Below the pieces are notes generated by a model. The model was given only the letters and a program-made list of their open reading frames with translations, ran no database searches and was not told the DNA's origin. From a virus, in the IMG/VR virus record IMGVR_UViG_3300024432_001337, positions 1 to 20,780 of that record: DNA of 20,780 bases, one strand, 5' to 3'. Below are positions 2,585 to 19,332 of the stretch, piece after piece (position 1 is the stretch's first letter; each line of letters opens with the position of its first letter). The translations under genes were made by a program, and so were the position numbers.

Positions 2585-3312
2585 TTACTTACTGGAATAT
2601 CTTTTTTTTCTTCAAAATCATTACAATGAATACATTTGGTCATATATGTAAAATCAGTACCAAACTCGTTTTTCTCAAACCATTCAGTAACTTTAGTATA
2701 ACCATCTTGTGTGATATTATTTAATAGAAATACTTTATCCATTAGATTAATATCTTTTTCTTCACCATCAGGTGTTATAATTGTTTCAATTACTTGTGCA
2801 TAAGTGTAAAGCGTCACTTCTGCCATTTTTTGTGTTTCAGTAAGGTTAGGAAGCTTATCAACTAATTTAAAGGCTTTTATTTGGTTTCTTCTTCTTATAT
2901 GTCCTATTTCAACCGTAATATTATCATCAACTTTAACCTTTTTACTTAATCTCTTATCAAGTTTAGTTATAGCTAAATTACTTAAATCAATATATTGAAT
3001 TGATTGTGATTTACACTTAGGACATGTAAAATCAAATTGATAAATTTTGCCTTTGGTTTTCTTCCTTAATTCCACAAGCAAATAGAATCTATCTTGAAGA
3101 TAAAGTTCTGTAATATCAAAATCCTCTGATATTACAGATGTTGTAATTAATTTATCTAAAGCTTCTTCTATTTTTGAGGGTCTTTTTTCACCCTCATAAA
3201 CCAATAAGCTTTTCATTTGTCCTGTTGTTATTGGTTTAAATTTAATTTCTTCACTACTTCCAGGCAAAATACAATCGAATTCATACACATTAACAAAATC
3301 TTTAAAACCCAT
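2572..3312 (-). CDS. T4 gp26-like tail assembly chaperone / baseplate hub assembly protein, zero-frame product
   Basis: A 246-residue protein with an N-terminal beta-rich segment (IKFKPITTGQMKSLLVYE), helical LDKLITTSVI and FDITELYLQDRFYLLVELRK segments, and two cysteine pairs, C97/C100 (CPKC) and C227/C230 (CIHC), that probably form a zinc ribbon. This layout resembles the T4 gp26 baseplate protein family (PF12322) as I remember it. Its position between the tube and tape-measure genes, and a -1 slippery sequence exactly at its stop codon, point to a tail assembly chaperone that loads the tape measure before tube polymerisation. The SD AAGGAG precedes the ATG at 3312. The family match is by eye, so the name is moderately sure; the chaperone role is inferred from context. 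Confidence 0.7.
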   Translation of the reverse strand: MGFKDFVNVYEFDCILPGSSEEIKFKPITTGQMKSLLVYEGEKRPSKIEEALDKLITTSVISEDFDITELYLQDRFYLLVELRKKTKGKIYQFDFTCPKCKSQSIQYIDLSNLAITKLDKRLSKKVKVDDNITVEIGHIRRRNQIKAFKLVDKLPNLTETQKMAEVTLYTYAQVIETIITPDGEEKDINLMDKVFLLNNITQDGYTKVTEWFEKNEFGTDFTYMTKCIHCNDFEEKKDIPVSNFFF

Positions 3313-3484
3313 AACACAATCTCCTTTTTATCATTATTTTTTGATAGAAAGTTTTATACTAATTTCTATTAAAAATTGCTTTAATATTACATCCTTCACA
3401 ACTTTCTACAAATTTAAATGTTATATTATGATTTCTACTTCTAAAATTTCCTCTTTTTATTAAATAGAAATCATATTTTAATTT
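3313..3484 (-). other. Tube-to-chaperone spacer with two inverted repeats and an in-frame extension
   Basis: This 172-base spacer has no ORF with a normal start. An 11-bp inverted repeat (TATGATTTCTA at 3427-3437 with its complement at 3465-3475) and a 9-bp one (TAGAAAGTT at 3345-3353, AACTTTCTA at 3400-3408) may fold in the RNA. After the tube stop the same frame stays open for about 41 codons and contains a CEGC motif, but has no start codon. A TATAAATA box overlaps the tube stop (3486-3493). The function is uncertain: leader, processing site, or decayed coding sequence. Confidence 0.4.
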
Positions 3485-4012
3485 TTATTTATATTCTATT
3501 ATGTGCCTTTGATATTTAAAGGTAACATCAAATTGTGCAACATCAGTTGTTGCATAATCCAAAGTTAATGCACCAATTGCTCCTGGCCATGCATCTATTA
3601 ATGTATATTCAATAATAGTTTTCCCATCAAGACCCAATAATTGAACCTTCTGGTCTCTCATATAATCAACAGGGTCTCCATGAACATTAGTTTCAGGATT
3701 ATGAATCATATCTGTCCATTTTGTAAACCATTCATGAATTTTTGCTTCTTGGTCAACGTTAAAAGAAACAGTCCAATCAGCAAACGTATACTTTGATGCC
3801 ATTTTGAAATCATATCCCTGCCAATTCACCAATGTTTCCTCTAGTGTTACTTCTGGTAAAGTAGTAGACCTTACAAGATAAACACTTTGGTCCTTATTAA
3901 AAGTTCCCGGAATATTTGGTATCATATAAAACAAATATTGACGTGCTCCGGCTCTAAAGTTATTTTTAAACTTTGTTATATCAAATGCATCAGGTTGATT
4001 TTTTTCACCCAT
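3485..4012 (-). CDS. 19: Tail tube protein, T4 gp19-like
   Basis: A 175-residue protein following the sheath gene by 23 bases, the usual sheath-tube order. The N-terminal FKNNFRAGARQYLFY, the central LPEVTLEETLVNWQGYDF and TFADWTVSFNVDQE, and the C-terminal FDVTFKYQRHIIEY match the pattern of T4 gp19-type tube proteins, which stack as hexameric rings to form the DNA-conducting tube inside the sheath. The length is close to the 163 residues of T4 gp19. The start at 4012 has the SD AGGAGGATT. The gene at 5846-6352 encodes a visible paralog. The operon continues into the chaperone gene after a 172-base spacer. Confidence 0.88.
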   Translation of the reverse strand: MGEKNQPDAFDITKFKNNFRAGARQYLFYMIPNIPGTFNKDQSVYLVRSTTLPEVTLEETLVNWQGYDFKMASKYTFADWTVSFNVDQEAKIHEWFTKWTDMIHNPETNVHGDPVDYMRDQKVQLLGLDGKTIIEYTLIDAWPGAIGALTLDYATTDVAQFDVTFKYQRHIIEYK

Positions 4013-4035
4013 TTCTTTTTAATCCTCCTATATTA

Positions 4036-5766
4036 TTAAGCTCTCATAGCTGCGATTTCGGTAAATGATGCACCAGTTTTTGTAGCTATAAAATTGAGGA
4101 CTATAAATTCTGCTGCTGTTGTGGGTTTAATATAAATATCACACCAAAGTTCACTTCGGGCAATTCTTTCCGGTGTATTATTTGTATCGTCACAAACTAC
4201 TAAGAACTCATAAATACCTCTTCTAGCTTGAACATCTCTTAAGAAAGGTGTAACCATATCTACCAATGTAATTCTTGTAAGACCAACATTAGGTTCAAAC
4301 AAGAAATACTTAGTTGCTGTACTAATTGCTTTTTCTAGAATCATAAACAATCTTCTAACATTAATTCTATTAAAAGCAGAAGTTTTTGAAAGCATTGTTT
4401 TTTGACCAAAAACAACCTTTCCGATACCAGCAAAACTTACAATTGGATTAATACCATTCTTATAAAGTATATCTCTTTGTCCAAGGTCTGGATTCCATGC
4501 AAGTCTTCTAATATTAAATAAAATTCCTCTATTAAGACCTGCTGGTGCAAACCAGGGGTCAGTAACATCATCTGTATTAGCAAAAACACCAGCTACATGA
4601 CCAGATGCTGGAACCCATCTATATTTTTGATTCCATTTATCATAAATTTCAAGCCAATTTCCATAAAGGGCTGCATAGCTTGAATTTTCATTCAAATTAG
4701 GATCGACAAGACCTAATCTCCAATTTCTTAAGTCTGTTGCTTCATTTCCTGAATTAAAAACAACTGAAGCATATGGACAATCTAAAACAGTCATAGCATC
4801 TTTTCTAATTTCACAAATACTAATTAGATAACTTTTAACTGTTTCTGATTTGTTAGAATCAATAAATAAATTAACATCAATTTCATCAGCATTTGCATAA
4901 AGGTCATATGCTGTCTGGATTGTTCCATCACCAAGTGAATCACCTCTGTCATTAGCACCTCCAGCAAATTGTTGAAATGATGATGTGACAATAGAAATAT
5001 CTTCATTTTTAAACGAAGCATTTAATACAATCCGAATATAATCCGATTGTTCATTAATAACAGTCTCAGCAAATCTTGAATAACCTTGGTCATCAATTTT
5101 ATTTTCATTTGTACTAACATTAAAAACCTCCACAGTAGACCATGTACTTGATCTTTGACCCTTTTCTTGAACAACTACCAGAAAATCTGTATCATCTTCT
5201 AATTGTTCATCGATTGCTATAAAAGTTGCATATGTATCCCATCCACTATTACCACCAGTAGCCATTTGGCTAAATGAGCTATAATCACATATAGCTAAAC
5301 GAATATTATTTCCCCATGCACCTCTAGAAGCTGCAATAAACCACATTGGAGATGGGCCAGATACAGTAACTTCACTAGCAAATTCATCAGGGTCTTCACT
5401 ACTGAAATCACTCAAAATATAAGCATTATCTGTGTCAAATGCTGTAAATGATTGACTAACCCCACTTGCGGCTTTAGTTCCAGAAAAATTAGCTGAAACT
5501 GGCATGGTTCTTGTACAATACAAACTATTTCCATATTTTAGAAAACCTGTACATGCTAAAACATCTTGATAACAAGCTGCTACATCTGTAGGTTCACCAA
5601 AAACACCAATAAGGTCATCTGTATTTGTGATTAATGTTTTCTTTTTTTCCGGCCCCTTATATGTATTTCTCAATACTGCAACACCTATTGACGTTGCAAC
5701 GGCAGGAACCGTTGTTGTTAAATCTCCTTCCTTGACATCAACAAGGGGTGAAAGATAGAAAGCCAT
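4036..5766 (-). CDS. 18: Contractile tail sheath protein, T4 gp18-like
   Basis: A 576-residue protein whose N-terminus (YLSPLVDVKEGDLTTTVPAV) and following GVAVLRNTYKGP are typical of phage sheath proteins. The C-terminal domain includes ILYKNGINPIVSFAGIGKVV, FGQKTMLSKTSAFNRINVRR and FLRDVQARRGIYEFLVVCDD, the conserved sheath core with its linker-exchange strands. Sheath subunits wrap the tube and contract on host binding. The length is a little under that of T4 gp18 (659 residues). The ATG at 5766 has the SD AAGGAGGAAT. A TATAAATA late-promoter box lies 56 bases upstream (5822-5829), and the tube gene follows directly. The product is a major virion component. Confidence 0.95.
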   Translation of the reverse strand: MAFYLSPLVDVKEGDLTTTVPAVATSIGVAVLRNTYKGPEKKKTLITNTDDLIGVFGEPTDVAACYQDVLACTGFLKYGNSLYCTRTMPVSANFSGTKAASGVSQSFTAFDTDNAYILSDFSSEDPDEFASEVTVSGPSPMWFIAASRGAWGNNIRLAICDYSSFSQMATGGNSGWDTYATFIAIDEQLEDDTDFLVVVQEKGQRSSTWSTVEVFNVSTNENKIDDQGYSRFAETVINEQSDYIRIVLNASFKNEDISIVTSSFQQFAGGANDRGDSLGDGTIQTAYDLYANADEIDVNLFIDSNKSETVKSYLISICEIRKDAMTVLDCPYASVVFNSGNEATDLRNWRLGLVDPNLNENSSYAALYGNWLEIYDKWNQKYRWVPASGHVAGVFANTDDVTDPWFAPAGLNRGILFNIRRLAWNPDLGQRDILYKNGINPIVSFAGIGKVVFGQKTMLSKTSAFNRINVRRLFMILEKAISTATKYFLFEPNVGLTRITLVDMVTPFLRDVQARRGIYEFLVVCDDTNNTPERIARSELWCDIYIKPTTAAEFIVLNFIATKTGASFTEIAAMRA

Positions 5767-5821
5767 ATTTATTCCTCCTTAAAAATTCTTTGTTCCTTAT
5801 TACTATTTATCACTTCTGTAT

Positions 5822-5829
5822 TATTTATA
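5822..5829 (-). promoter_or_regulatory. T4-type late promoter box upstream of the sheath gene
   Basis: The minus strand reads TATAAATA, an exact match to the T4 late-promoter -10 element, in the 79-base spacer before the sheath start at 5766. Transcription would begin about 50 bases before the ATG and leave the SD intact. The box is short and could occur by chance in AT-rich DNA; its intergenic placement before a highly expressed gene supports it. Confidence 0.55.
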
Positions 5830-5845
5830 AAAACTGTTAAGAATT

Positions 5846-6352
5846 TTACGTTTCTCTTATTTCAAAATAATCATAAGCGAAATTTACTGTACTTTCTAGG
5901 AGTGTTTCACCTTCTCTATGTGTAAGTGTAATTTCTCCTAGCATATTAATCCATACATTTATAAAATGAATACGTAAGACCTCTTTTCTAAAATTATCCG
6001 TTACTCTAAGAGTAGCATCCACAACATAATTAGCAGGGTCTTCACCGAATTTATCTTTATTATTATTAATAAAAGTAATCCATCTATAAAGAAGTTTCCA
6101 ATTATTAAATTCTGAATCAACAATAAAATTTACTGTCCATGGATCAAATGTAACATTTCCACTATCAGATTGAAATTTTGCACCCATCCATCTATGTTCA
6201 ATACTATCTAAATTTAGGCCAGGAATTATAGTTCCATATATATTTAAAGAAAATTCTTCCGTGGCATTAATGGCTGTTTCTGTTGGTATTAATGGAAAAA
6301 CTAATTCATATGAAGTTGGTGTTGCTTTATTTACATTAATATTTATACTCAT
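5846..6352 (-). CDS. Tail-tube-like paralog (gp19 fold), possible minor or terminal tube protein
   Basis: A 168-residue protein that aligns by eye with the main tube protein. IPGLNLDSIEHRWMGAKFQS (from residue 43) parallels LPEVTLEETLVNWQGYDFKM, and TFDPWTVNFIVDSE parallels TFADWTVSFNVDQE; both then have a W-rich helix and a C-terminal beta segment ending in aromatic residues (VNFAYDYFEI). It is therefore probably a tube-fold protein, such as a tube terminator, initiator or head-proximal ring. The ATG overlaps the stop of the gp15-like gene (TAATG at 6354-6350), so translation is probably coupled. Lying between the gp15-like and sheath genes suggests a role at the neck end of the tail. The exact function is inferred. 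Confidence 0.68.
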   Translation of the reverse strand: MSININVNKATPTSYELVFPLIPTETAINATEEFSLNIYGTIIPGLNLDSIEHRWMGAKFQSDSGNVTFDPWTVNFIVDSEFNNWKLLYRWITFINNNKDKFGEDPANYVVDATLRVTDNFRKEVLRIHFINVWINMLGEITLTHREGETLLESTVNFAYDYFEIRET

Positions 6353-7122
6353 TAATCAAACACCTCATATTTATAAAGTATTTCACCTGTTTCGTCTTTA
6401 CCAAGTGCTTTCATCCATAATGATTCGGCTTCATGACCACCACCAGAAGTATACTCAGTTTCTGTTCCCAAATAAGTATGTAGTCTATCTTCTTCATCAT
6501 ATATTTTTGTAATAACCTCTTCTACTAAACCAGTTTCACCCACTGGTTGGAATAGAAAACCATGGACCATAAAATCCAAATTCCATTTAATAATTCTTCT
6601 TTCTTCATCTGGCATTTCAAAAACTATATCTGGGGCTGCTGACTGAAAAAGAACCTTAACTTCAAAATATGTATCCATTTCAGGAATATGAATTCGCATC
6701 ATAACATAAGGTGCAAAATATGGAAGAATTTGTTCAAGAAGCATATCTATATCAACCATATGTAATGACCAAATATTTAATTGAAACAATATGTTATATG
6801 GTATTGGATTTACATAACGTGCAATAGAACCACCAGAAGTATCAGTTGATGTTGTTATTTTATGATGTTTATTTGTCATCCTTTCCGGTGAAAAATCCAT
6901 ACTATTTATTTGTGCAGATAGAATAGGTAAAAGTTCATCATCTTTTCTTTCATTAAGCCAATAAAAAACTTTTTGTTTTGGTGCAAATTTCAATGGTACT
7001 TTGACCATTTTAATAATTTGACCAGTTTCCTTATTATATCTAGCAACCTGTAAATCGTTGAAAAGATCGAGAAACTGAATGATCGTTTTCCTTAACGATT
7101 TATAATAATAAAATTGTTTCAT
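6352..7122 (-). CDS. 15: Tail sheath stabiliser and completion protein, T4 gp15-like
   Basis: A 256-residue protein. The opening KQFYYYKSLRKTIIQFLDLF with NDLQVAR and VKVPLKFAPKQK parallels the start of T4 gp15 (aromatic-rich start, a DLFSNIQIKR-like segment, then V-P-I-Y-A-S-K). LLEQILPYFAPY (near residue 130) matches the VEQILPYFQP segment of gp15, and SAAPDIVFEMPDEERRIIKW matches its later beta region. gp15 caps the finished tail and joins it to the neck. The length is close to the 272 residues of T4 gp15. The gene follows the gp14-like gene, as in T4 order, and its stop overlaps the next start. Confidence 0.86.
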   Translation of the reverse strand: MKQFYYYKSLRKTIIQFLDLFNDLQVARYNKETGQIIKMVKVPLKFAPKQKVFYWLNERKDDELLPILSAQINSMDFSPERMTNKHHKITTSTDTSGGSIARYVNPIPYNILFQLNIWSLHMVDIDMLLEQILPYFAPYVMMRIHIPEMDTYFEVKVLFQSAAPDIVFEMPDEERRIIKWNLDFMVHGFLFQPVGETGLVEEVITKIYDEEDRLHTYLGTETEYTSGGGHEAESLWMKALGKDETGEILYKYEVFD

Positions 7123-10582: not shown

Positions 10583-12097
10583 TTAACTTGTTTCTACTAT
10601 TTGAACTTTTTGACCATCTGCTACAAAACAATATTTTTTATTATTATATATTGTTTTTAGATATACTGGTCTATTCCATAAATTGTAAATATGCTTTAGC
10701 GTTTCTTCAGCATATTTTGGTTCAAGATTGGGGCCAGTATGTTTATGTTCCATTAAAAGTATTCCGGTATTATTATGATTTCCATTTCTTACAATTATTT
10801 TAGGAATTCCACTATGTGCAAAACTTTGCACTATAAGGTCTCTAACTTCTCTTGCTTTATGACCTGTTCGAACATAATCTATATGTGTCATTGATTCTAA
10901 TGGTGCAAAAACATATAGATTTAATTCATCAATTAAATCAGGTGTTAAAAAATCTTGCATAAAAAACCAATCTGTATAGCTTCTCAGTACCTCCATAACC
11001 CTTTCCATACCTTTCATTTCTTTAGTATCCCACTCTTCCTTTGCTTTGGTATCATGACAATTATCATAATCATATCCATGCTTGCCTTTATTCCATCTTT
11101 CTTCTATATCTTCCCACATTTTGGAACCCAAAAGATATGGATTTAAAGTCTGTTTATGTTCAGCTTTTACCAAGGCGTTTGAATAGTTATATTGACCATG
11201 TTCATTTTGTGTCAATAAACCCTCTTTAAAAAGTTGATTCATTATTTTCTGATGAATAAAAGTAGCAAATCCTTCATTCATATAACGAGTTTTGATAATA
11301 GGCCAATAATATTGACCTTCAATTCTGAGAATCTCTAAAATATCCTTATGCCAATCTTCTAAAATCCCAGAATTATCAATAATATATCGTAACAAATCTT
11401 CTGTTGGTACCACAGGTGTTCTTAATTTGATTTGCCTCCACAGTCTCTGATTTTCTAGAGCAATATCAACTCCAGGTTTTTTATCCATATCACCATCATA
11501 TTCTGTAAGGTCTGCAAATTCTGATGTCTTTGGTTTCTTCAATAATTTTTGTTGTTCGAAAACTCGCATTCTTTTTTCGTCTTCGGTTTCATTATCAAAA
11601 GGATTTGAATGTAACTGAAGAGCATGTCCAGCATCGACAATTGTTTCAATTTCATCAATTCCAAATCGTCTTTCATACTTGTTTACTCTTCTATTAGCTT
11701 CAGCCATAAATTCAATGATATCACGTCTGGATTCCTGGAACCATTTATTCTCAGTAAAGAAACCAACATGCCCATAAACATGAGCGAGAACAAGTGCCTG
11801 AACAGCAAAAGTATTTGAATTCATAAGATATGCTCTTGCCGGATTACTATTTATAACAACCTCATAAGGCAATCCGGGGTCTATATTCTCATGAATTGTT
11901 CTTAGCTTTTCATAATCTCTTCCAAATTTCCAATTAGAAAGATTAACAGGAGACCTATATGCCATAATTTCTAGCATTTTTTGAGTAGGAACAATATCGA
12001 ATTCAACTGGAATACATTGAATCCCCATTTCATCAATAAGAATTTCTTTAATCCGGTCTTCAATTTTTATCAATCTTCTTAAATCATTCTTTTCCAT
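10583..12097 (-). CDS. spoVR: SpoVR family protein
   Basis: A 504-residue protein of the SpoVR family (Bacillus SpoVR, E. coli YcgB), close to the usual ~470-510 residues. Visible family features are the N-terminal amphipathic helix, YRSPVNLSNWKFGRDYEKLR, NSNTFAVQALVLAHVYGHVG with HVYGH at 106-110, and RYMNEGFATFIH with E275 and H282; the histidine/glutamate motifs look like a metal site. In bacteria spoVR/ycgB co-occurs with prkA and yhbH and is tied to spore cortex formation or to starvation and stress survival; its biochemistry is unresolved. Its ATG overlaps the yhbH stop (TAATG at 12099-12095), so translation is probably coupled. It is the last gene of the cassette and is followed by a terminator. 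It is intact, with no frameshift seen. Confidence 0.95.
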   Translation of the reverse strand: MEKNDLRRLIKIEDRIKEILIDEMGIQCIPVEFDIVPTQKMLEIMAYRSPVNLSNWKFGRDYEKLRTIHENIDPGLPYEVVINSNPARAYLMNSNTFAVQALVLAHVYGHVGFFTENKWFQESRRDIIEFMAEANRRVNKYERRFGIDEIETIVDAGHALQLHSNPFDNETEDEKRMRVFEQQKLLKKPKTSEFADLTEYDGDMDKKPGVDIALENQRLWRQIKLRTPVVPTEDLLRYIIDNSGILEDWHKDILEILRIEGQYYWPIIKTRYMNEGFATFIHQKIMNQLFKEGLLTQNEHGQYNYSNALVKAEHKQTLNPYLLGSKMWEDIEERWNKGKHGYDYDNCHDTKAKEEWDTKEMKGMERVMEVLRSYTDWFFMQDFLTPDLIDELNLYVFAPLESMTHIDYVRTGHKAREVRDLIVQSFAHSGIPKIIVRNGNHNNTGILLMEHKHTGPNLEPKYAEETLKHIYNLWNRPVYLKTIYNNKKYCFVADGQKVQIVETS

Positions 12098-13404
12098 TAG
12101 TTTTTCCTTTTCTCAAATAAGAAATGTTTTAGACAAGGATAAACATGCTGTTTGTTTCTTATGATACACGCTAAAAAATGCAACTCACTATTCTTATAAA
12201 ACTCAGTTCCTTGTTCTTCCATTTTTTTGAACTTAAAATGTTTCTTAAAAGCATCGAGCAAATCACCACTATATGAATGGAAAGCTGCCTCTGAATCCAG
12301 ATTAATTTCAGTATAACCAAACATATTAATTTTCTTTTTTAACATTTCTTGTACTGAACGTACTGTTTTAACAGAATCAAAATCTTCACCATCAGATATA
12401 TACATTGAATAAACATTCCATTCAGCAACAGGATATTCAGTATCAATCAGATAATTTGCTTTATCAATAGCGGTATGGCAAAATGTACCACCAGATTCAC
12501 CCTCATGGAAAAAATCATGTTCGCTCACAATTTTGGCTTCTGTAGTATGTGTAATAAAACGAATTTCAACATATTCATAAGTCTTCTTAAGAAACTCTAC
12601 AAGCCAAAAAAGCATTGACCTAGCCAGATATTTCTTTTCTGTTGTCATTGAACCCGAAACATCCATCATAGCTAAAACAACAGCATTTGAATGAATTTCA
12701 ATATCTTCTTCAATTTGTTTATATCTTAAATCTTCATCTTGGATATAGATAAATGGTTCAACCGATTGATCTACTTTGTTTTCCGTAACAATAGTAAGTG
12801 CGTCTTCAATATCACCTTTAGCTTGTGCAAGTGCTCTATTTGCATCATCTTCACTACATCCTGTCTCTTCTATAATTTCATTAACAAATGAAGCACTTCG
12901 TTTAATTGACTCTTTGAATGTTCTTTTCTTATGAATTCTAGCATTTGTACCTTTTTTAGAAATTGATTCAAATTTCCATCCTTTGGGTACAAGTTGTTTG
13001 GCTTTGGTTTTTTCTTTAATGTAAGGCAAACCAAGGTCTTCAAACATTATATCAATTAAATAATCGATATCAACTTCAGTCTCAAGAATATCATCACCTA
13101 AACGGTCTCCAGGTTTTCTATCCTTTTTATTTCTTTTTTCCTTACTGTCAATGATATCTCCTTTCTTACCTTCACCCTGACCAACACCACCACCACCATT
13201 GTTACTACCATAAACAAATCGATAGTCTTTAAGACCTCTTACAGGTATCCGAACTTTCTTTCCTCTTTTCTTAGTAATAATGGTTTCTTCTGAGATTACA
13301 TCTCTGATATTTTTACGAATGTGGTCATCAATTTTCTCTCTATGACGAGCAGCATCCTTTTTTCCTTTCTCACTCAAACTCCAATCATCATGATCTACAA
13401 TCAT
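12097..13404 (-). CDS. yhbH: YhbH/YeaH (DUF444) protein with von Willebrand-like domain and UBA-like insertion
   Basis: A 435-residue member of the DUF444 family (Bacillus YhbH, E. coli YeaH). The N-terminus has the family RHREKIDDHIRKNIRDVISE helix, a basic strand region and a Gly-rich linker (residues 69-79). A von Willebrand A-like domain begins at about 239 with the metal-site motif DVSGSM (248-253), ESGGTFCHTA and ISDGEDF. E. coli YeaH works with the kinase YeaG in stress and nitrogen-starvation responses. Residues about 173-207 (NEIIEETGCSEDDANRALAQ, then GDIEDALTIV) look like a UBA-type three-helix domain, which I do not recall in standard YhbH. The C-terminus (about 395-435) extends past the domain. 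The start at 13404 has the SD GGGAGAG inside the end of the macro gene. It forms an operon with the genes on both sides. Confidence 0.94.
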   Translation of the reverse strand: MIVDHDDWSLSEKGKKDAARHREKIDDHIRKNIRDVISEETIITKKRGKKVRIPVRGLKDYRFVYGSNNGGGGVGQGEGKKGDIIDSKEKRNKKDRKPGDRLGDDILETEVDIDYLIDIMFEDLGLPYIKEKTKAKQLVPKGWKFESISKKGTNARIHKKRTFKESIKRSASFVNEIIEETGCSEDDANRALAQAKGDIEDALTIVTENKVDQSVEPFIYIQDEDLRYKQIEEDIEIHSNAVVLAMMDVSGSMTTEKKYLARSMLFWLVEFLKKTYEYVEIRFITHTTEAKIVSEHDFFHEGESGGTFCHTAIDKANYLIDTEYPVAEWNVYSMYISDGEDFDSVKTVRSVQEMLKKKINMFGYTEINLDSEAAFHSYSGDLLDAFKKHFKFKKMEEQGTEFYKNSELHFLACIIRNKQHVYPCLKHFLFEKRKN

Positions 13405-13405
13405 T

Positions 13406-13834
13406 TTATCTCTCCCATTTACAAATTATTGCATCTGGAATTTCTTCTTCTATGATTTTTTCAACTATGTTCCAATCACCACCAGCAAGGCTACATCCTA
13501 TTTTATAAGGGATGTAAATAGGAAGATTCAATAGTCTTGTTACACCTTGAAGACATGTTCTTAAGGCCCTGTAATCAGTATATCTTTTACCCCTTCCATA
13601 TCCACCCTGACCACAAAGATTAGCAACCATTATTCCAGCATCAACAGAAACTATTTGGGTAAATCCTAATTTCAGTTGATTCTTTTTGAAGGCATACCTA
13701 TAAGCATCATAGACATAGGGCCATTTTTTTCTAATCGAAAAGGCTAAACCTGCACCCATAACACCTTTGCAATTTACTTGGTGACAGATTAGCCCTTTTT
13801 CAATCTCAAGAATATTTTTTCTTATTACTTCCAT
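13406..13834 (-). CDS. Macro-domain protein (ADP-ribose binding/hydrolase type)
   Basis: A 142-residue single macro domain. Loop 1 is CHQVNCKGVMGAGLAFSIRK, followed by KKWPYVYDAY; the region ANLCGQGGYGRGKRYTDY and the second loop IPYKIGCSLAGGDW form the ADP-ribose pocket. The pattern is nearest to TARG1/Poa1p/DarG-type macro proteins, which remove ADP-ribose from proteins or DNA or act on ADP-ribose 1''-phosphate; which reaction applies cannot be read from sequence alone. A TTG start at 13840 is possible (two extra residues), but the ATG at 13834 is preferred; neither has a strong SD. The upstream 54-residue ORF ends inside this gene, so translation is probably coupled. It sits between prkA and yhbH, a position not usual in bacteria. 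A role in reversing ADP-ribosylation during infection is inference. Confidence 0.88.
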   Translation of the reverse strand: MEVIRKNILEIEKGLICHQVNCKGVMGAGLAFSIRKKWPYVYDAYRYAFKKNQLKLGFTQIVSVDAGIMVANLCGQGGYGRGKRYTDYRALRTCLQGVTRLLNLPIYIPYKIGCSLAGGDWNIVEKIIEEEIPDAIICKWER

Positions 13835-13970
13835 CGACAATCACAAATTCTCGTTTGGGTTTATAGATATGTTTATTCCCATCCAGGAGTTTATACATCA
13901 TCTGTCTATCGATATAATGTGTTGCCAAAACCTTATATACTTTGTTTGTTATTTTATGCTTCACTTGCAT
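13806..13970 (-). CDS. Small ORF (54 aa) between prkA and the macro gene
   Basis: An ATG at 13970 opens 54 codons to TGA at 13808-13806, starting MQVKHKITNKVYKVLATHYI and ending KKKYS. The SD AGAGGAA lies at the very end of prkA, 6 bases before this start region, and the ORF fills the 135-base gap, then overlaps the macro start by 29 bases. The basic, Y/K-rich composition with alternating hydrophobics (EFVIVDG) looks like a small folded beta protein. I recognise no family. A good SD, gap-filling position and overlap support a real gene whose translation feeds the macro gene. Confidence 0.65.
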   Translation of the reverse strand: MQVKHKITNKVYKVLATHYIDRQMMYKLLDGNKHIYKPKREFVIVDGSNKKKYS

Positions 13971-13975
13971 AAAAT

Positions 13976-15937
13976 TTATTCCTCTTTTCGAAGAATTTCA
14001 CCAACAAAGGCCAACAACATTTCACCACAATGTTTGCAATAACCACGTTTTTCCAACAACCTAACTGCTGATCTTCTCCTGATTTTTGCCTTTTTGGATG
14101 TAGTTGATTTATCAGCTATTGTTAATGATACTACATTCTTAAGGTCTCCAAAAAGCTTCTTTTCAATAGCTTCTTTTAGTGGAGCATAAGACTTAAATGT
14201 AAAACTTTCTCCACGTTCTAAAGCTGTTGATTTGTATACAAAGATTCCATTTCTGAACTCAGCTTTTGAATTTATCGGAACTGAAATTATTTCCTCAATT
14301 GACCGCATTAATTTTTCATCAGGATTTGAATATTCTTCTGTGATTGAATCATAGACTTTCTCTTTTCGACAATATGCTTCAGCATTCATTATATAATTCT
14401 CGAATAGAGACTGTGCTTGGTCATCATATGCACTAAGAAATGCAAAATTGACTTCCTTTTTGGCTTCTTCTTTAAATTCTGAGCTAACAGAATCCTTCTC
14501 ACCTAAAAGAATATTCAGATAACGGGATTTGTCTTCATCAGATATTCCAATATGATGGTCAAAATTTTGCCTTAATGCCCTGATAATATCAATTGGATTG
14601 ATACAATTTTTCTCTTCCTTCATTCCAAGAGCAACATTAAGAGCATTAATGATAAATCGGGGTGAAACACCATTCATTCCTTCACCCTTTTCTCGACCTT
14701 CTTGAATCAAGGTCTTGACATCAATTTCCTGTTTTTTAAAATCTTCAGTAACATCACCATTATAAAGCTTCATTTTTTCCAATAATGAAGTTACTTTAGT
14801 AGAACTTGCAAGTCTTGAAAGAACCGCAAATTGAGCAGCTATCTTTAAAGTATGCGGTGCGATATGGATGGTTTTAAAATCAGATTCCTTAATCAATTTT
14901 TCATAAATCTTAACTTCATCGTTTACACGAAGATTCCACGGTACCATAACGGGATACATTCTATCATGCATGGCCTCATTTTTCTTTTCAGCCTTGAATA
15001 TATCGAATTCAGTTTGATTTGTATGTGCCAAAATCAATTCATCAATATACATCTGAGGAAAACCTGGAGACTTGATTACCTGTTCTTGTGCTGCTGTAAT
15101 AAGAACATATTGAAGCTTGATATCGGTTTTCAACAACTCAATCATTTCAATCATACCACGGTTTGCAATTTGCATTTCACCGTCAAACTGATATGCTCTT
15201 GGGTCTGTTTCACCAAATCTTGCGATTTTGGACATGTTAATCCGACCAATTAATTCGGAAACATCTTGTGATTTGGGGTCTGAAGGTTGAAATGTACCAA
15301 TACCAATACGTCTTTGTTCAGAAAATACAACCTTTTCAACAGGAATTTCATCCCATCTAACCACACCATCTTCACCAGTATGTTCTGAATCCACGTTTGA
15401 TTGACATACAGGACAAACAACACCTTCAATCTTTATACCAAGTTGTCCTTCCCAATATTCCCGGTCAGCTAAAGGAATAAGATGTAAAGGCTCTTCATTG
15501 ATAGGACAACCTTTGATTCCATATATTGGTGTATCATCATTCTCAAGACCTCTCTTGAAAAGCATGGCAAGTGTACTTTTACCCGAAGCCACAGGTCCAA
15601 CCATAATAAGGATTCGTTTTCCTGTTTCTGTCCTACGGGCAGATGCTTTTAGGAATTTCATAAGGTCATGAATAGATTCATAAGTACCAAAAATCTTTCC
15701 ATCAAAAAACTTATACTGTACAAGGTCTTCATAACCCCTTATTTTCAAAGAAGAATCAACTTCTCTGGTACCATATTTCATAATCATATCATATATTCGA
15801 CCAGAGGCAAATTGAGCAATTTTTGGAGCTTCCCTAACTAAATAGAGATAATCCAAACATGTACCTTCCCAAGGTTTGTGTTCTTTACCCTGTCTTTGTT
15901 CCAAAATCACATTTCTGAAATCTTCATCATTCATCAT
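13976..15937 (-). CDS. prkA: PrkA/YeaG family AAA+ serine protein kinase
   Basis: A 653-residue PrkA-family protein, near the usual ~630-645. Features: N-terminal helical region; AAA+ Walker A GPVASGKST (114-122); a Cys pair CPVC (175-178) after EDREYW-like PLADREYWEGQ; SEQRRIGIGTFQPSDPKSQD and DPRAYQFDGEMQIANRGMIE typical of PrkA; and a C-terminal kinase-like domain ending RGYCKHCGEMLLAFVGEIL (C634, C637). Bacterial PrkA/YeaG acts with YhbH/YeaH and SpoVR/YcgB in sporulation, stress or nitrogen-starvation survival; it has been described as a serine kinase and as an AAA+ protease-like protein. The ATG at 15937 has the SD AGGGAG; a second ATG follows directly. A sigma70-type promoter lies at 15981-16009. 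No damage to key motifs is visible. Confidence 0.96.
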   Translation of the reverse strand: MMNDEDFRNVILEQRQGKEHKPWEGTCLDYLYLVREAPKIAQFASGRIYDMIMKYGTREVDSSLKIRGYEDLVQYKFFDGKIFGTYESIHDLMKFLKASARRTETGKRILIMVGPVASGKSTLAMLFKRGLENDDTPIYGIKGCPINEEPLHLIPLADREYWEGQLGIKIEGVVCPVCQSNVDSEHTGEDGVVRWDEIPVEKVVFSEQRRIGIGTFQPSDPKSQDVSELIGRINMSKIARFGETDPRAYQFDGEMQIANRGMIEMIELLKTDIKLQYVLITAAQEQVIKSPGFPQMYIDELILAHTNQTEFDIFKAEKKNEAMHDRMYPVMVPWNLRVNDEVKIYEKLIKESDFKTIHIAPHTLKIAAQFAVLSRLASSTKVTSLLEKMKLYNGDVTEDFKKQEIDVKTLIQEGREKGEGMNGVSPRFIINALNVALGMKEEKNCINPIDIIRALRQNFDHHIGISDEDKSRYLNILLGEKDSVSSEFKEEAKKEVNFAFLSAYDDQAQSLFENYIMNAEAYCRKEKVYDSITEEYSNPDEKLMRSIEEIISVPINSKAEFRNGIFVYKSTALERGESFTFKSYAPLKEAIEKKLFGDLKNVVSLTIADKSTTSKKAKIRRRSAVRLLEKRGYCKHCGEMLLAFVGEILRKEE

Positions 15938-16541: not shown

Positions 16542-17969
16542 CTAAAAAAATCTATGATTTATTATATTATATTTTATATTACCACAGTCCCAAATTCTAT
16601 CCCATCCATTTCTTTGCATTATTTCCCATTCTGTTCCTTTTCCTTCTAATTTATCTCTTCTGAAATTGAAACGATGGTATCTTCTTGTACCATCAGTATT
16701 ATTCCTTTTGAAGTACCAATAATTAGGTTTTGTATATCCTATCTTTTCAAATCCTATTTTTTCATAAACATTTCCAATACTCCATCTTCTATCTGCAAAA
16801 GAAAAAATTTCTTCCCATTCAAAATTTCTTTGAAAATATTTTAATAATCTAGATGCTATTCCAACTACTGTTTTAGATGTACAAAATCTTGAAAGTTCCC
16901 ATATATTACTCTGTTGGTCTTTACGACCTTTAGATAAAGAAGGCTTTGAAAATGTCATTACAGCGACTAATTCATAATTATAATATGCACCAATTTTAAT
17001 TCTGCAAGAAGTATATCCCTGAATATGGATTTTTTCTATAAAACATCTTGCAGTTTTAGTATTAATTTCTGTAATATAACAATTTCTTGCATAAATTTTC
17101 TTTTTATTAAATCCGAGAATATGCTTGAGTCTTTGTTTAACTATTTCTCTTTTATTGACCCATTCATCTTCAAATAAAGTTAATAATTGTAAATCTTTAT
17201 TTAAGCATTTTTCTAATTTGTTGAGATGATAAAATTTATCTTTACCATTATTTTCTGAATGCCAATATAATCCACAATATTCAATAGCTATTTTCTTTGA
17301 TGGTAAATAGATATCTAATTCTTGAGGAAAAATTATACTTCTTACATTATATTTGAGATATAGATTCAAAGAATGTAAATATTCTTTCAATTCTATTTCT
17401 TGTTTAGATATTGATTTAGAACAAGATGGACAACGACTTTTTGAATTCCAATAATTCCATGTTGTTACATGTTTATGACCTTTAGAACATATATATTCAA
17501 GTTTAGATTTACTATTTTTATAATCTTTTTTAGAAGTAAGAAGTATATAACCTTCTTCCTTCATTGATTCCATAATTTTTTTATATTTTATTTTTGCATT
17601 ACCTGCACATGTAGGACATCTAGATTTTCTTCTATCCCAATTATCCCAGGATACTGAATGTTTATGTCCAGAAGGACAAATATAAGACATTTTATATTTT
17701 GCATTAATATAAACTTCATCTAATAATACATAACCTTCTTTTTTGAAGGATTTTTTAATTAGTTTAAAATCTACAGGTGCATTATGTTTACATTTTTTAC
17801 ATTTTTGACCATTATTCCAATGTGCCCAATCTATTTGATGTTGATGTTTTTTATTACAAATGAATCTTATTTTTGATTGATTATTTTTATATTCAGATGG
17901 TTTACTTAAAATTATATATCCTTCACTTTTAAATGATTTAACTATTTTTTTGAAATCCACCTTTTTCAT
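16542..17969 (-). CDS. Free-standing homing-endonuclease-like protein: three zinc repeats, Vsr-like nuclease, GNAT-like domain
   Basis: A 475-residue multidomain protein. Residues 1-184 are three ~60-residue repeats, each with a motif such as SEGYIIL or EEGYILL followed by C-x3-H-x-H and C-x2-C, for example C98/H102/H104/C118/C121 and C161/H165/H167/C180/C183; they are probably zinc-binding DNA-contact modules. Residues ~186-272 resemble an EDxHD (Vsr-like) nuclease: QELDIYLPSKKIAIEYCGLY with WHSE, then YHLNKLEKC and LLTLFEDEW. Residues ~290-425 resemble a GNAT/Mom-like acyltransferase fold found in phage proteins (YNYELVAVMTF, ELSRFC, FADRRWSIGNVYEKIGF). Such proteins cut unoccupied sites and spread by homing. 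The gene is visibly richer in A/T, K, Y and N than its neighbours and is flanked by 22-bp direct repeats. Its last residues lie in one repeat. The SD before the ATG is weak. Confidence 0.8.
   Translation of the reverse strand: MKKVDFKKIVKSFKSEGYIILSKPSEYKNNQSKIRFICNKKHQHQIDWAHWNNGQKCKKCKHNAPVDFKLIKKSFKKEGYVLLDEVYINAKYKMSYICPSGHKHSVSWDNWDRRKSRCPTCAGNAKIKYKKIMESMKEEGYILLTSKKDYKNSKSKLEYICSKGHKHVTTWNYWNSKSRCPSCSKSISKQEIELKEYLHSLNLYLKYNVRSIIFPQELDIYLPSKKIAIEYCGLYWHSENNGKDKFYHLNKLEKCLNKDLQLLTLFEDEWVNKREIVKQRLKHILGFNKKKIYARNCYITEINTKTARCFIEKIHIQGYTSCRIKIGAYYNYELVAVMTFSKPSLSKGRKDQQSNIWELSRFCTSKTVVGIASRLLKYFQRNFEWEEIFSFADRRWSIGNVYEKIGFEKIGYTKPNYWYFKRNNTDGTRRYHRFNFRRDKLEGKGTEWEIMQRNGWDRIWDCGNIKYNIINHRFF
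16545..16566. repeat. Direct repeat, copy A, at the end of the homing-endonuclease-like gene
   Basis: This 22-base element (six A, then a T, then CTATGATTTATTATA) matches copy B at 18007-18028 at 21 of 22 bases. Copy A holds the last codons of the 475-residue gene. The flanking bases GAAATGTAAAC lie just before it (16532-16542). Confidence 0.75.
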
Positions 17970-18129: not shown

Positions 18130-19332
18130 TTAAGGCATGTCTTGTACTGTTATCTTATGATAATAATTTGCAGCGCCGAATATATGGCTATGCACGGCGT
18201 ATCTTGACATAAGACCAACTGCCGGGTTAAAAGAGTCTTCAAATGTAGCCTTGCTAACCAATAACTGAATATATGGTAGGTAAATAACACCTGTATCATA
18301 CTCAGATGGTCCTTTATAACCTAGAGTTGCATCGGAAGTTGTTCCACTTGCGCCTACTGTCTCTGTAGCGAATGTATCACGATAAACTGTGATTCTTCCA
18401 TCCAGAGAACCTAGTCTTGCTACACCAGTTATGGCTGTATTGACATCAGCATTTACGGGTGAAATTGTAAAACTTGACATTGCTTCAAGGGACGCACAAA
18501 CAGAAGGTGCACAAATAATAAAATTAGCTGCACCACGTCTTGTGAGTTTTGCAATAGAATTAGCTTTACGAATAATCTCATTGTAAAGACATCTATACTT
18601 CTCAGCTTCCCATCTACCATCAGCATTTGACAAATATGACCATGTTGATGTATTTGCAACACCATTAATTGTATCAACTAATTCACGATCAATTTCTGCT
18701 GTGATTTCATAAGCCAAGATGTCCATCATTTCTTCTTCAAGATCAAGACCATGCATTGCTTTAAGGTCTTGAGCAACTTCGAGTGACCAACGGCTTCTCA
18801 ACTTGCGAGTTTCTGCTTCTACTTGGGCCTTTTCGACTGTCATGTTAACTTCTTTGATATGAGTACCAGCACCAACACCGATACCAATATCTCCACCAAC
18901 ACCTGAACCAGCTTTTGAACCAAGAGTTTCACCTGCTGTTGTGACAACTGAACCCGTATATGTCTTATCGATTGTATTAAATCCAAGTTCTTGACCTGCT
19001 GGTTGTCCTGAATAAGTTGAACCTGCTCTGAATCTAAGAGCAAAAGCCAAACCTACAGGGCCTGTTAAAGGTTGAACACCAACGATTTCATGAGCAATTA
19101 ACTCAGGAAATGTTCTACGTACCATGGGAATAGCAATCTTATGAAATTCACCAGAAGTTGCATATCCACCTGATTTATTGAGCATTTGCTCTGTATATCC
19201 ACCAGCTTCATGGAGATAATTGTATTCATTCTCCAACATTAGAGCAGTACTTTTCTTGACTTTAGGGTTTTTAATCTCAACACCCTCAGTGAGAACTTCT
19301 TCCCATTTCTTAATAAGTCCTTTTAAGTCCAT
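18130..19332 (-). CDS. 23: Major capsid protein, T4 gp23-like
   Basis: A 400-residue HK97-fold capsid protein of the T4 type. Diagnostic stretches are FPELIAHEIVGVQPLTGPVG with LAFALRFRAG, SRWSLEVAQDLKAMHGLDLE, and EITAEIDRELVDTINGVA; the C-terminus has GVIYLPYIQLLVSK, FNPAVGLMSRYAVH and NYYHKITVQD. It builds the head as hexamers. T4 gp23 is 521 residues, so this version is compact. The N-terminal LHE/AGG at residues 40-45 fits the L/I-x-E consensus of the T4 prohead protease, predicting a mature protein from A43. The SD AGGAGGATAG precedes the ATG. It is co-transcribed with the scaffold gene just upstream and ends at a strong terminator. Confidence 0.95.
   Translation of the reverse strand: MDLKGLIKKWEEVLTEGVEIKNPKVKKSTALMLENEYNYLHEAGGYTEQMLNKSGGYATSGEFHKIAIPMVRRTFPELIAHEIVGVQPLTGPVGLAFALRFRAGSTYSGQPAGQELGFNTIDKTYTGSVVTTAGETLGSKAGSGVGGDIGIGVGAGTHIKEVNMTVEKAQVEAETRKLRSRWSLEVAQDLKAMHGLDLEEEMMDILAYEITAEIDRELVDTINGVANTSTWSYLSNADGRWEAEKYRCLYNEIIRKANSIAKLTRRGAANFIICAPSVCASLEAMSSFTISPVNADVNTAITGVARLGSLDGRITVYRDTFATETVGASGTTSDATLGYKGPSEYDTGVIYLPYIQLLVSKATFEDSFNPAVGLMSRYAVHSHIFGAANYYHKITVQDMP

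Follow-up and report, generated by a model that had tools for sequence, protein, structure and literature searches.

A bacterial-type PrkA-YhbH-SpoVR gene set between the terminase genes in a clade of uncultured T4-like phages

The locus and the phage

The window, by which we mean the whole stretch of DNA analysed, is an IMG/VR record of 20,780 bases and represents one metagenomic fragment. The relatives with which it is compared are IMG/VR fragments only and many of these loci are short. All window genes of interest lie on the minus strand. Three open and complete reading frames, prkA (15937-13976), yhbH (13404-12097) and spoVR (12097-10583), are placed between terS (16488-15994), encoding the gp16-like small terminase, and terL (10444-8885), encoding the gp17-like large terminase. 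TerL is recognized by Terminase_6N (1.2e-19) and a PHROG terminase profile (3.3e-55); the match of TerS to PHROG 445 is weak (E value 4e-4) and its position is conserved across the clade described below. The major capsid protein gp23 is encoded at 18130-19332 (Gp23 profile, 5e-97), and sheath (3.5e-99), tube, gp15 and T4 baseplate genes are also present. The gp23 capsid, T4-type terminase, contractile tail and late promoters identify a T4-like phage. A first-pass annotation had placed the trio between terS and terL of such a phage, and the coordinates together with the gp23, sheath and baseplate genes bear this out.

The same annotation described a tight operon of three genes. The trio and its adjacency stand; the restriction to three genes does not, since a further ORF lies between prkA and yhbH. 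This accessory ORF (13840-13406) encodes 144 residues resembling a macro domain of ADP-ribose-binding type (PHROG 335; PDB macrodomain-type chains from 4.8e-17). Its translation probably starts at the ATG near 13834, and a short ORF (about 54 codons, approximately 13970-13806) lies upstream and overlaps the macro-domain ORF. In those relatives whose prkA-yhbH interval was read, no macro-domain ORF was found. A second accessory gene, an HNH/homing endonuclease (16542-17969), separates the late promoter from terS. Homing endonuclease insertions are common around trio loci, and in L002, L040 and other loci such ORFs lie inside the trio. In L040 (6456-10000) terL itself is in pieces, with intein/intron-like and homing endonuclease ORFs between them. 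One sub-lineage (L011, L012, L017, L019, L020, L022, L025, L027 and L037) carries small J-domain (DnaJ-like) ORFs between spoVR and terL, and several of its loci have a methyltransferase-like ORF in the same interval.

The three proteins

The first-pass annotation recognized three intact families from short motifs, and profiles and residue positions in the window agree. PrkA is full length at 653 residues and comprises an AAA+ ATPase domain and the PrkA C-terminal domain (Pfam AAA_PrkA, 7.8e-112, and PrkA, 9.7e-67; scores of 374 and 226 bits, the cut-offs being 25). A profile of the phage proteins matches PDB entry 9xip at 5e-214. The Walker A motif, GPVASGKS, spans residues 114-121 and its lysine (Lys120, equivalent to YeaG Lys116) is present in 132 of 132 phage copies. 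The position of YeaG Lys426, residue 431 in the window protein, is occupied by asparagine in 129 copies, the window among them, and by aspartate in the other three.

YhbH (DUF444, 6.1e-92, 309 bits) is a VWA/MIDAS protein of 435 residues. DVSGSM occupies positions 248-253, and the MIDAS residues Asp248, Ser250, Ser252 and Thr307 are invariant in 145 of 145 copies. The predicted structure matches VWA folds, including that of MDN1-MIDAS (midasin, PDB code 8ql1). Alignment, Pfam and the structure model delineate an insert at approximately residues 159-209 (about 12930-12778), N-terminal to the VWA domain; it amounts to some 40 residues, is predicted to be helical and resembles UBA domains, with matches to Pfam UBA_8 and EF-Ts_N that are both sub-threshold. 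Counted by alignment occupancy, the insert is found in 145/145 phage proteins, 14/14 from the sister-type bacteria and 0/15 from other bacteria. That it is an invention of the phages can be discounted, as the sister bacteria possess the same insert.

SpoVR, with 504 residues (SpoVR, 1.4e-96, 324 bits; SpoVR_C, 7.4e-10, 39 bits), is encoded by a gene whose first base is also the last of yhbH. HVYGH and NEGFATFIH correspond to residues 106-110 and 274-282, respectively. His106, His110 and Glu275, contributed by HVYGH and NEG, are invariant in 148 of 148 copies and form a putative metal site. The predicted structure has a pLDDT of 90.5 and a comparison with PDB folds gave no match at E ≤ 0.001. 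Assignment as a gluzincin-type metallopeptidase was rejected on account of this result and because the glutamate of HEXXH is replaced by valine, cysteine or alanine.

Distribution and conservation

Searches with PrkA, SpoVR and TerL, after removal of sequence duplicates, left 91 distinct loci with prkA or spoVR in uncultured phages. The complete order terS-prkA-yhbH-spoVR-terL occurs in 48 of them. No T4-type phage with the trio as a standard part was known to the first-pass annotation; here it is a core gene set of an uncultured T4-like clade and not a one-off. A chimeric assembly is excluded, the terS-prkA join recurring in 62 distinct loci and the spoVR-terL join in 72. The TerL and capsid proteins share no more than about 36% identity with the best isolate matches among those listed and, to judge from these sequences, the clade is one of T4-like phages without a near cultured relative. 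To find the host, TerL was sought in binned genomes, 395 from the phylum of the Desulfarculales locus and 296 from that of the Spirochaetales locus; there was no match, but neither search, lacking a positive control, is informative.

A count not ascertained through the trio was taken from the clade loci found by TerL alone that have more than 4.5 kb of upstream sequence (n = 21, distinct). Upstream of terL spoVR is present in 20 of the 21, as is yhbH. The exception, L043, and L197 are the nearest TerL relatives (47-50% identity) and lack the trio, and between terS and terL both have instead a reversed lipoprotein-like ORF and a nucleotide-kinase-like ORF (the pair at 5192-6410 and 3021-4201, respectively). 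Insertion of the trio is on this basis placed on the stem of the clade. Neither gene occurs in the available sequence (median 3.3 kb upstream) of the 66 outgroup loci, in which TerL identity is below 45%. The terS-trio-terL block is inverted as one unit relative to its neighbours in L009, L010 and L013; percent identities in the synteny comparisons refer to best BLAST segments.

Median dN/dS values, from pairs that are not independent, are 0.091 for prkA, 0.094 for yhbH, 0.129 for spoVR, 0.087 for terL and 0.071 for mcp. By this sequence-based measure the trio is under purifying selection as strong as that on terL. The genes are routine in related phages but not neutral; the first-pass annotation had named the two properties together as refuting its case. 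Pairwise identities across 32 loci correlate among the trio proteins with r of 0.83-0.88, and with those of TerL at 0.70-0.84.

Transcription signals

In the clade TATAAATA, the core of T4 late promoters, outnumbers every other 8-mer upstream of both terS and terL. It precedes terS in 31 of 59 loci (shuffled mean 2.8) and terL in 30 of 55 (shuffled mean 1.8), at distances to the start codon that mostly fall between 23 and 65 nt. Upstream of prkA (1/63), yhbH (0/65), spoVR (0/74) and mcp it is about at or below chance. Exact copies in the window are positioned at 17988-17981, at the head of hnh-terS-prkA-macro-yhbH-spoVR, and at 10479-10472, serving terL. The motif carries information only when matched exactly over the whole clade; a search of the window by itself that allowed up to one mismatch showed no excess, nor do sigma-70-like promoters in the window exceed shuffles. 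A terminator hairpin 3′ of the capsid gene (18097-18062) would mark the upstream bound of the unit and another 3′ of spoVR (10548-10523) the downstream bound. Such hairpins follow mcp in 45/48 loci, spoVR in 23/72, terS in 0/58 and yhbH in 1/71. In 19 of 64 loci there is also one in the 150 nt that follow prkA, a possible site of attenuation between prkA and yhbH. Late promoters stand before terS and terL but not before the trio genes, and a terminator separates the unit from the capsid gene; we conclude that terS, its first conserved gene, and the trio constitute one predicted late transcription unit.

Origin and related systems

The PrkA tree unites 32 phage proteins in a single group (support 99), and the sister is one group (98) of proteins from Desulfobacterota, Spirochaetota and Fibrobacterota. 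The branch joining phage and bacterial groups has a support of 85, or 96 in a wider set that includes one long-branched protein. Single phage groups are also recovered for YhbH (100) and SpoVR (99), so that the comparison with bacterial proteins, proposed at the outset as a check, yields a single phage clade for each member of the trio. By these trees transfer could have gone either way between phage and bacteria. L099 and L110 are deep branches within the PrkA clade; spoVR was not found in L110 within 21.7 kb of sequence. Cyanobacteria/Melainabacteria-type genomes (L299-L302) have at least two tandem PrkA-like matches, which are only 22-29% identical to the query.

The sister-group operon, which we term UBA-type, shares with the phages the order prkA-yhbH-spoVR, a PrkA 55-59% identical, the UBA-like insert in YhbH and, in all three PrkA sequences aligned, asparagine at the position of YeaG Lys426. 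It differs in being chromosomal rather than part of a phage late operon, and it is sister to the phage clade, not within it. In E. coli the same three families are represented by yeaG-yeaH and ycgB, with ycgB located apart from the other two. The Walker A lysine is in common with the phage proteins, but the E. coli-type PrkA is only about 30% identical (Enterobacter YeaG was compared), Lys426 is present and YhbH has no comparable insert. An ATPase with a MIDAS-bearing VWA partner, like PrkA with YhbH, is also a feature of MoxR-type systems such as RavA-ViaA, CbbQ-CbbO and NorQ-NorD, although these employ another AAA+ family and have no SpoVR counterpart.

Thermus, jumbo and huge phages were already known to carry the trio or part of it. 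All three genes occur in the Thermus phages whose region was read (phiYS40, MN1, Lalka27b and phiLo), as in the clade, and TMA also belongs to this group. These phages are not members of the T4-like clade, their gene order is yhbH-spoVR-prkA, the copies aligned have no UBA insert, and their PrkA is 31-35% identical to that of the clade and falls elsewhere in the tree. In Lalka27b (L053) the trio is situated between the minor head gene and terL, close to packaging genes as in the clade, and in phiYS40 (L049) it is 1.1 kb from terL; in these two phages it thus adjoins terL, portal or minor-head genes. Uncultured huge phages of 595-642 kb have PrkA and SpoVR, with YhbH seen in LR756511, and Ralstonia jumbo phage RsoM2USA carries PrkA and SpoVR (PMC8504454). 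The distance from the trio to terL is about 30 kb or greater in MN1, L128 and four huge phages. The adjacency in Lalka27b and phiYS40 is therefore suggestive only, and a universal link with packaging genes is ruled out.

Function

What might such a gene set do late in infection? In our judgement, with a probability of roughly 0.45, it is a captured bacterial-type trio that acts as a late AAA+/VWA/SpoVR remodelling machine supporting virion assembly and packaging. A complete bacterial-type operon would have been acquired once, next to terS, by the ancestor of the clade, becoming part of the core set and being transcribed late together with terS from the T4-type promoter. PrkA, as a ring-forming AAA+ ATPase, and YhbH, as its VWA/MIDAS adaptor, would remodel proteins, the UBA-like insert possibly binding substrate and SpoVR, with its putative metal site (His106, His110, Glu275), serving as partner or effector. 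The likely use would be protein remodelling or quality control for virion assembly and packaging late in infection. From gene content, conservation, the single origin of each protein, selection and operon signals, all computed directly, we infer the complex, its remodelling activity and a virion-linked target. The conserved order, movement of the block as a unit, late signals, selection, invariant residues and single phage clades argue for this explanation, as do the positions in Lalka27b and phiYS40, phages outside the clade, and the J-domain-like ORF that some clade members have ahead of terL. The findings suggest that the trio helps to make or finish particles rather than to steer the host early.

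PrkA has been proposed variously to act as a kinase, a protease or a scaffold. The first-pass annotation allowed for a phosphorylation-dependent process, which the sequences disfavour. E. coli YeaG requires Lys426 (PMC4664914), and for a Ser/Thr kinase in the YeaG sense this required lysine is absent from all 132 phage copies. Assayed in vitro, the PrkA of B. anthracis showed negligible activity as a kinase or as a protease (PMC13001217). For these reasons AAA+ remodelling appears a better fit than phosphorylation signalling.

Other observations weigh against the preferred explanation. T4-like phages with TerL 33-40% identical lack the trio near terL, SpoVR fits no solved fold, and the target is one that we infer only. 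Within the PrkA clade, L063/L107/L069, L100 and L099 have the trio away from both terS and terL, with no late promoter close by. These cases, together with the distance from terL in MN1, the four huge phages and L128, indicate that a strict packaging role is not general. The relocated trio of L063 counts instead for the preferred explanation, having genes for Hsp20, an M24 peptidase and a Clp-like AAA protein in its neighbourhood. The Clp-like AAA+ gene (L063, 19889-21941) has a Hint (intein-like) domain. The narrower proposal of a dedicated virion-morphogenesis machine, an AAA+/VWA/SpoVR complex acting on terminase, portal, capsid or tail proteins, we regard as plausible though less likely than not.

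A credible, if less favoured, alternative to late remodelling for assembly is that the trio is a late physiology module, keeping a starving, slow-growing host alive and productive through a long latent period, as YeaG/YeaH do in nitrogen-starved E. coli. In bacteria the trio serves starvation, stress and sporulation, and the phages keep theirs even where it has moved from the packaging genes. B. anthracis requires PrkA in sporulation and under osmotic stress (PMC13001217), and spoVR is the most abundant sporulation-related viral gene reported in an oxygen minimum zone (PMC8940887). However, the lysine on which the starvation role of YeaG depends is missing from the phage proteins and from the bacterial sister type. 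Host-takeover genes are usually early, and the trio shares one probable late operon with terS. As regards the first-pass suggestion that the phage may reshape host dormancy, the predicted late promoter speaks against early host takeover, not against a late physiological role.

It is improbable that the trio serves counter-defence or competition, as an AAA+ machine dismantling a host defence or a complex of a rival phage. AAA+ proteins are employed by phages and hosts alike in their conflict and a macro-domain ORF, suggestive of ADP-ribose handling, has joined the operon in the window phage, but that ORF is missing from the gaps read in relatives. Counter-defence genes are moreover usually early and patchy, whereas the trio is late, core and constrained like the terminase. 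An assembly artefact or neutral hitch-hiker can be dismissed given the recurrent joins (62 and 72 loci), dN/dS of about 0.1 and invariant active residues.

In bacteria, where the trio is widespread, its biochemical role is unsettled. Its place as a core component of a probable late operon in a phage clade narrows what it could be doing to something useful late in infection, and the conserved feature, we argue, is the AAA+ activity and not the kinase residue. The phages supply some 90 diverse natural homologues with which to study the system. If the morphogenesis reading is true, a bacterial stress system would have been turned into a phage assembly factor, which may in turn hint at the role of the trio in bacteria.
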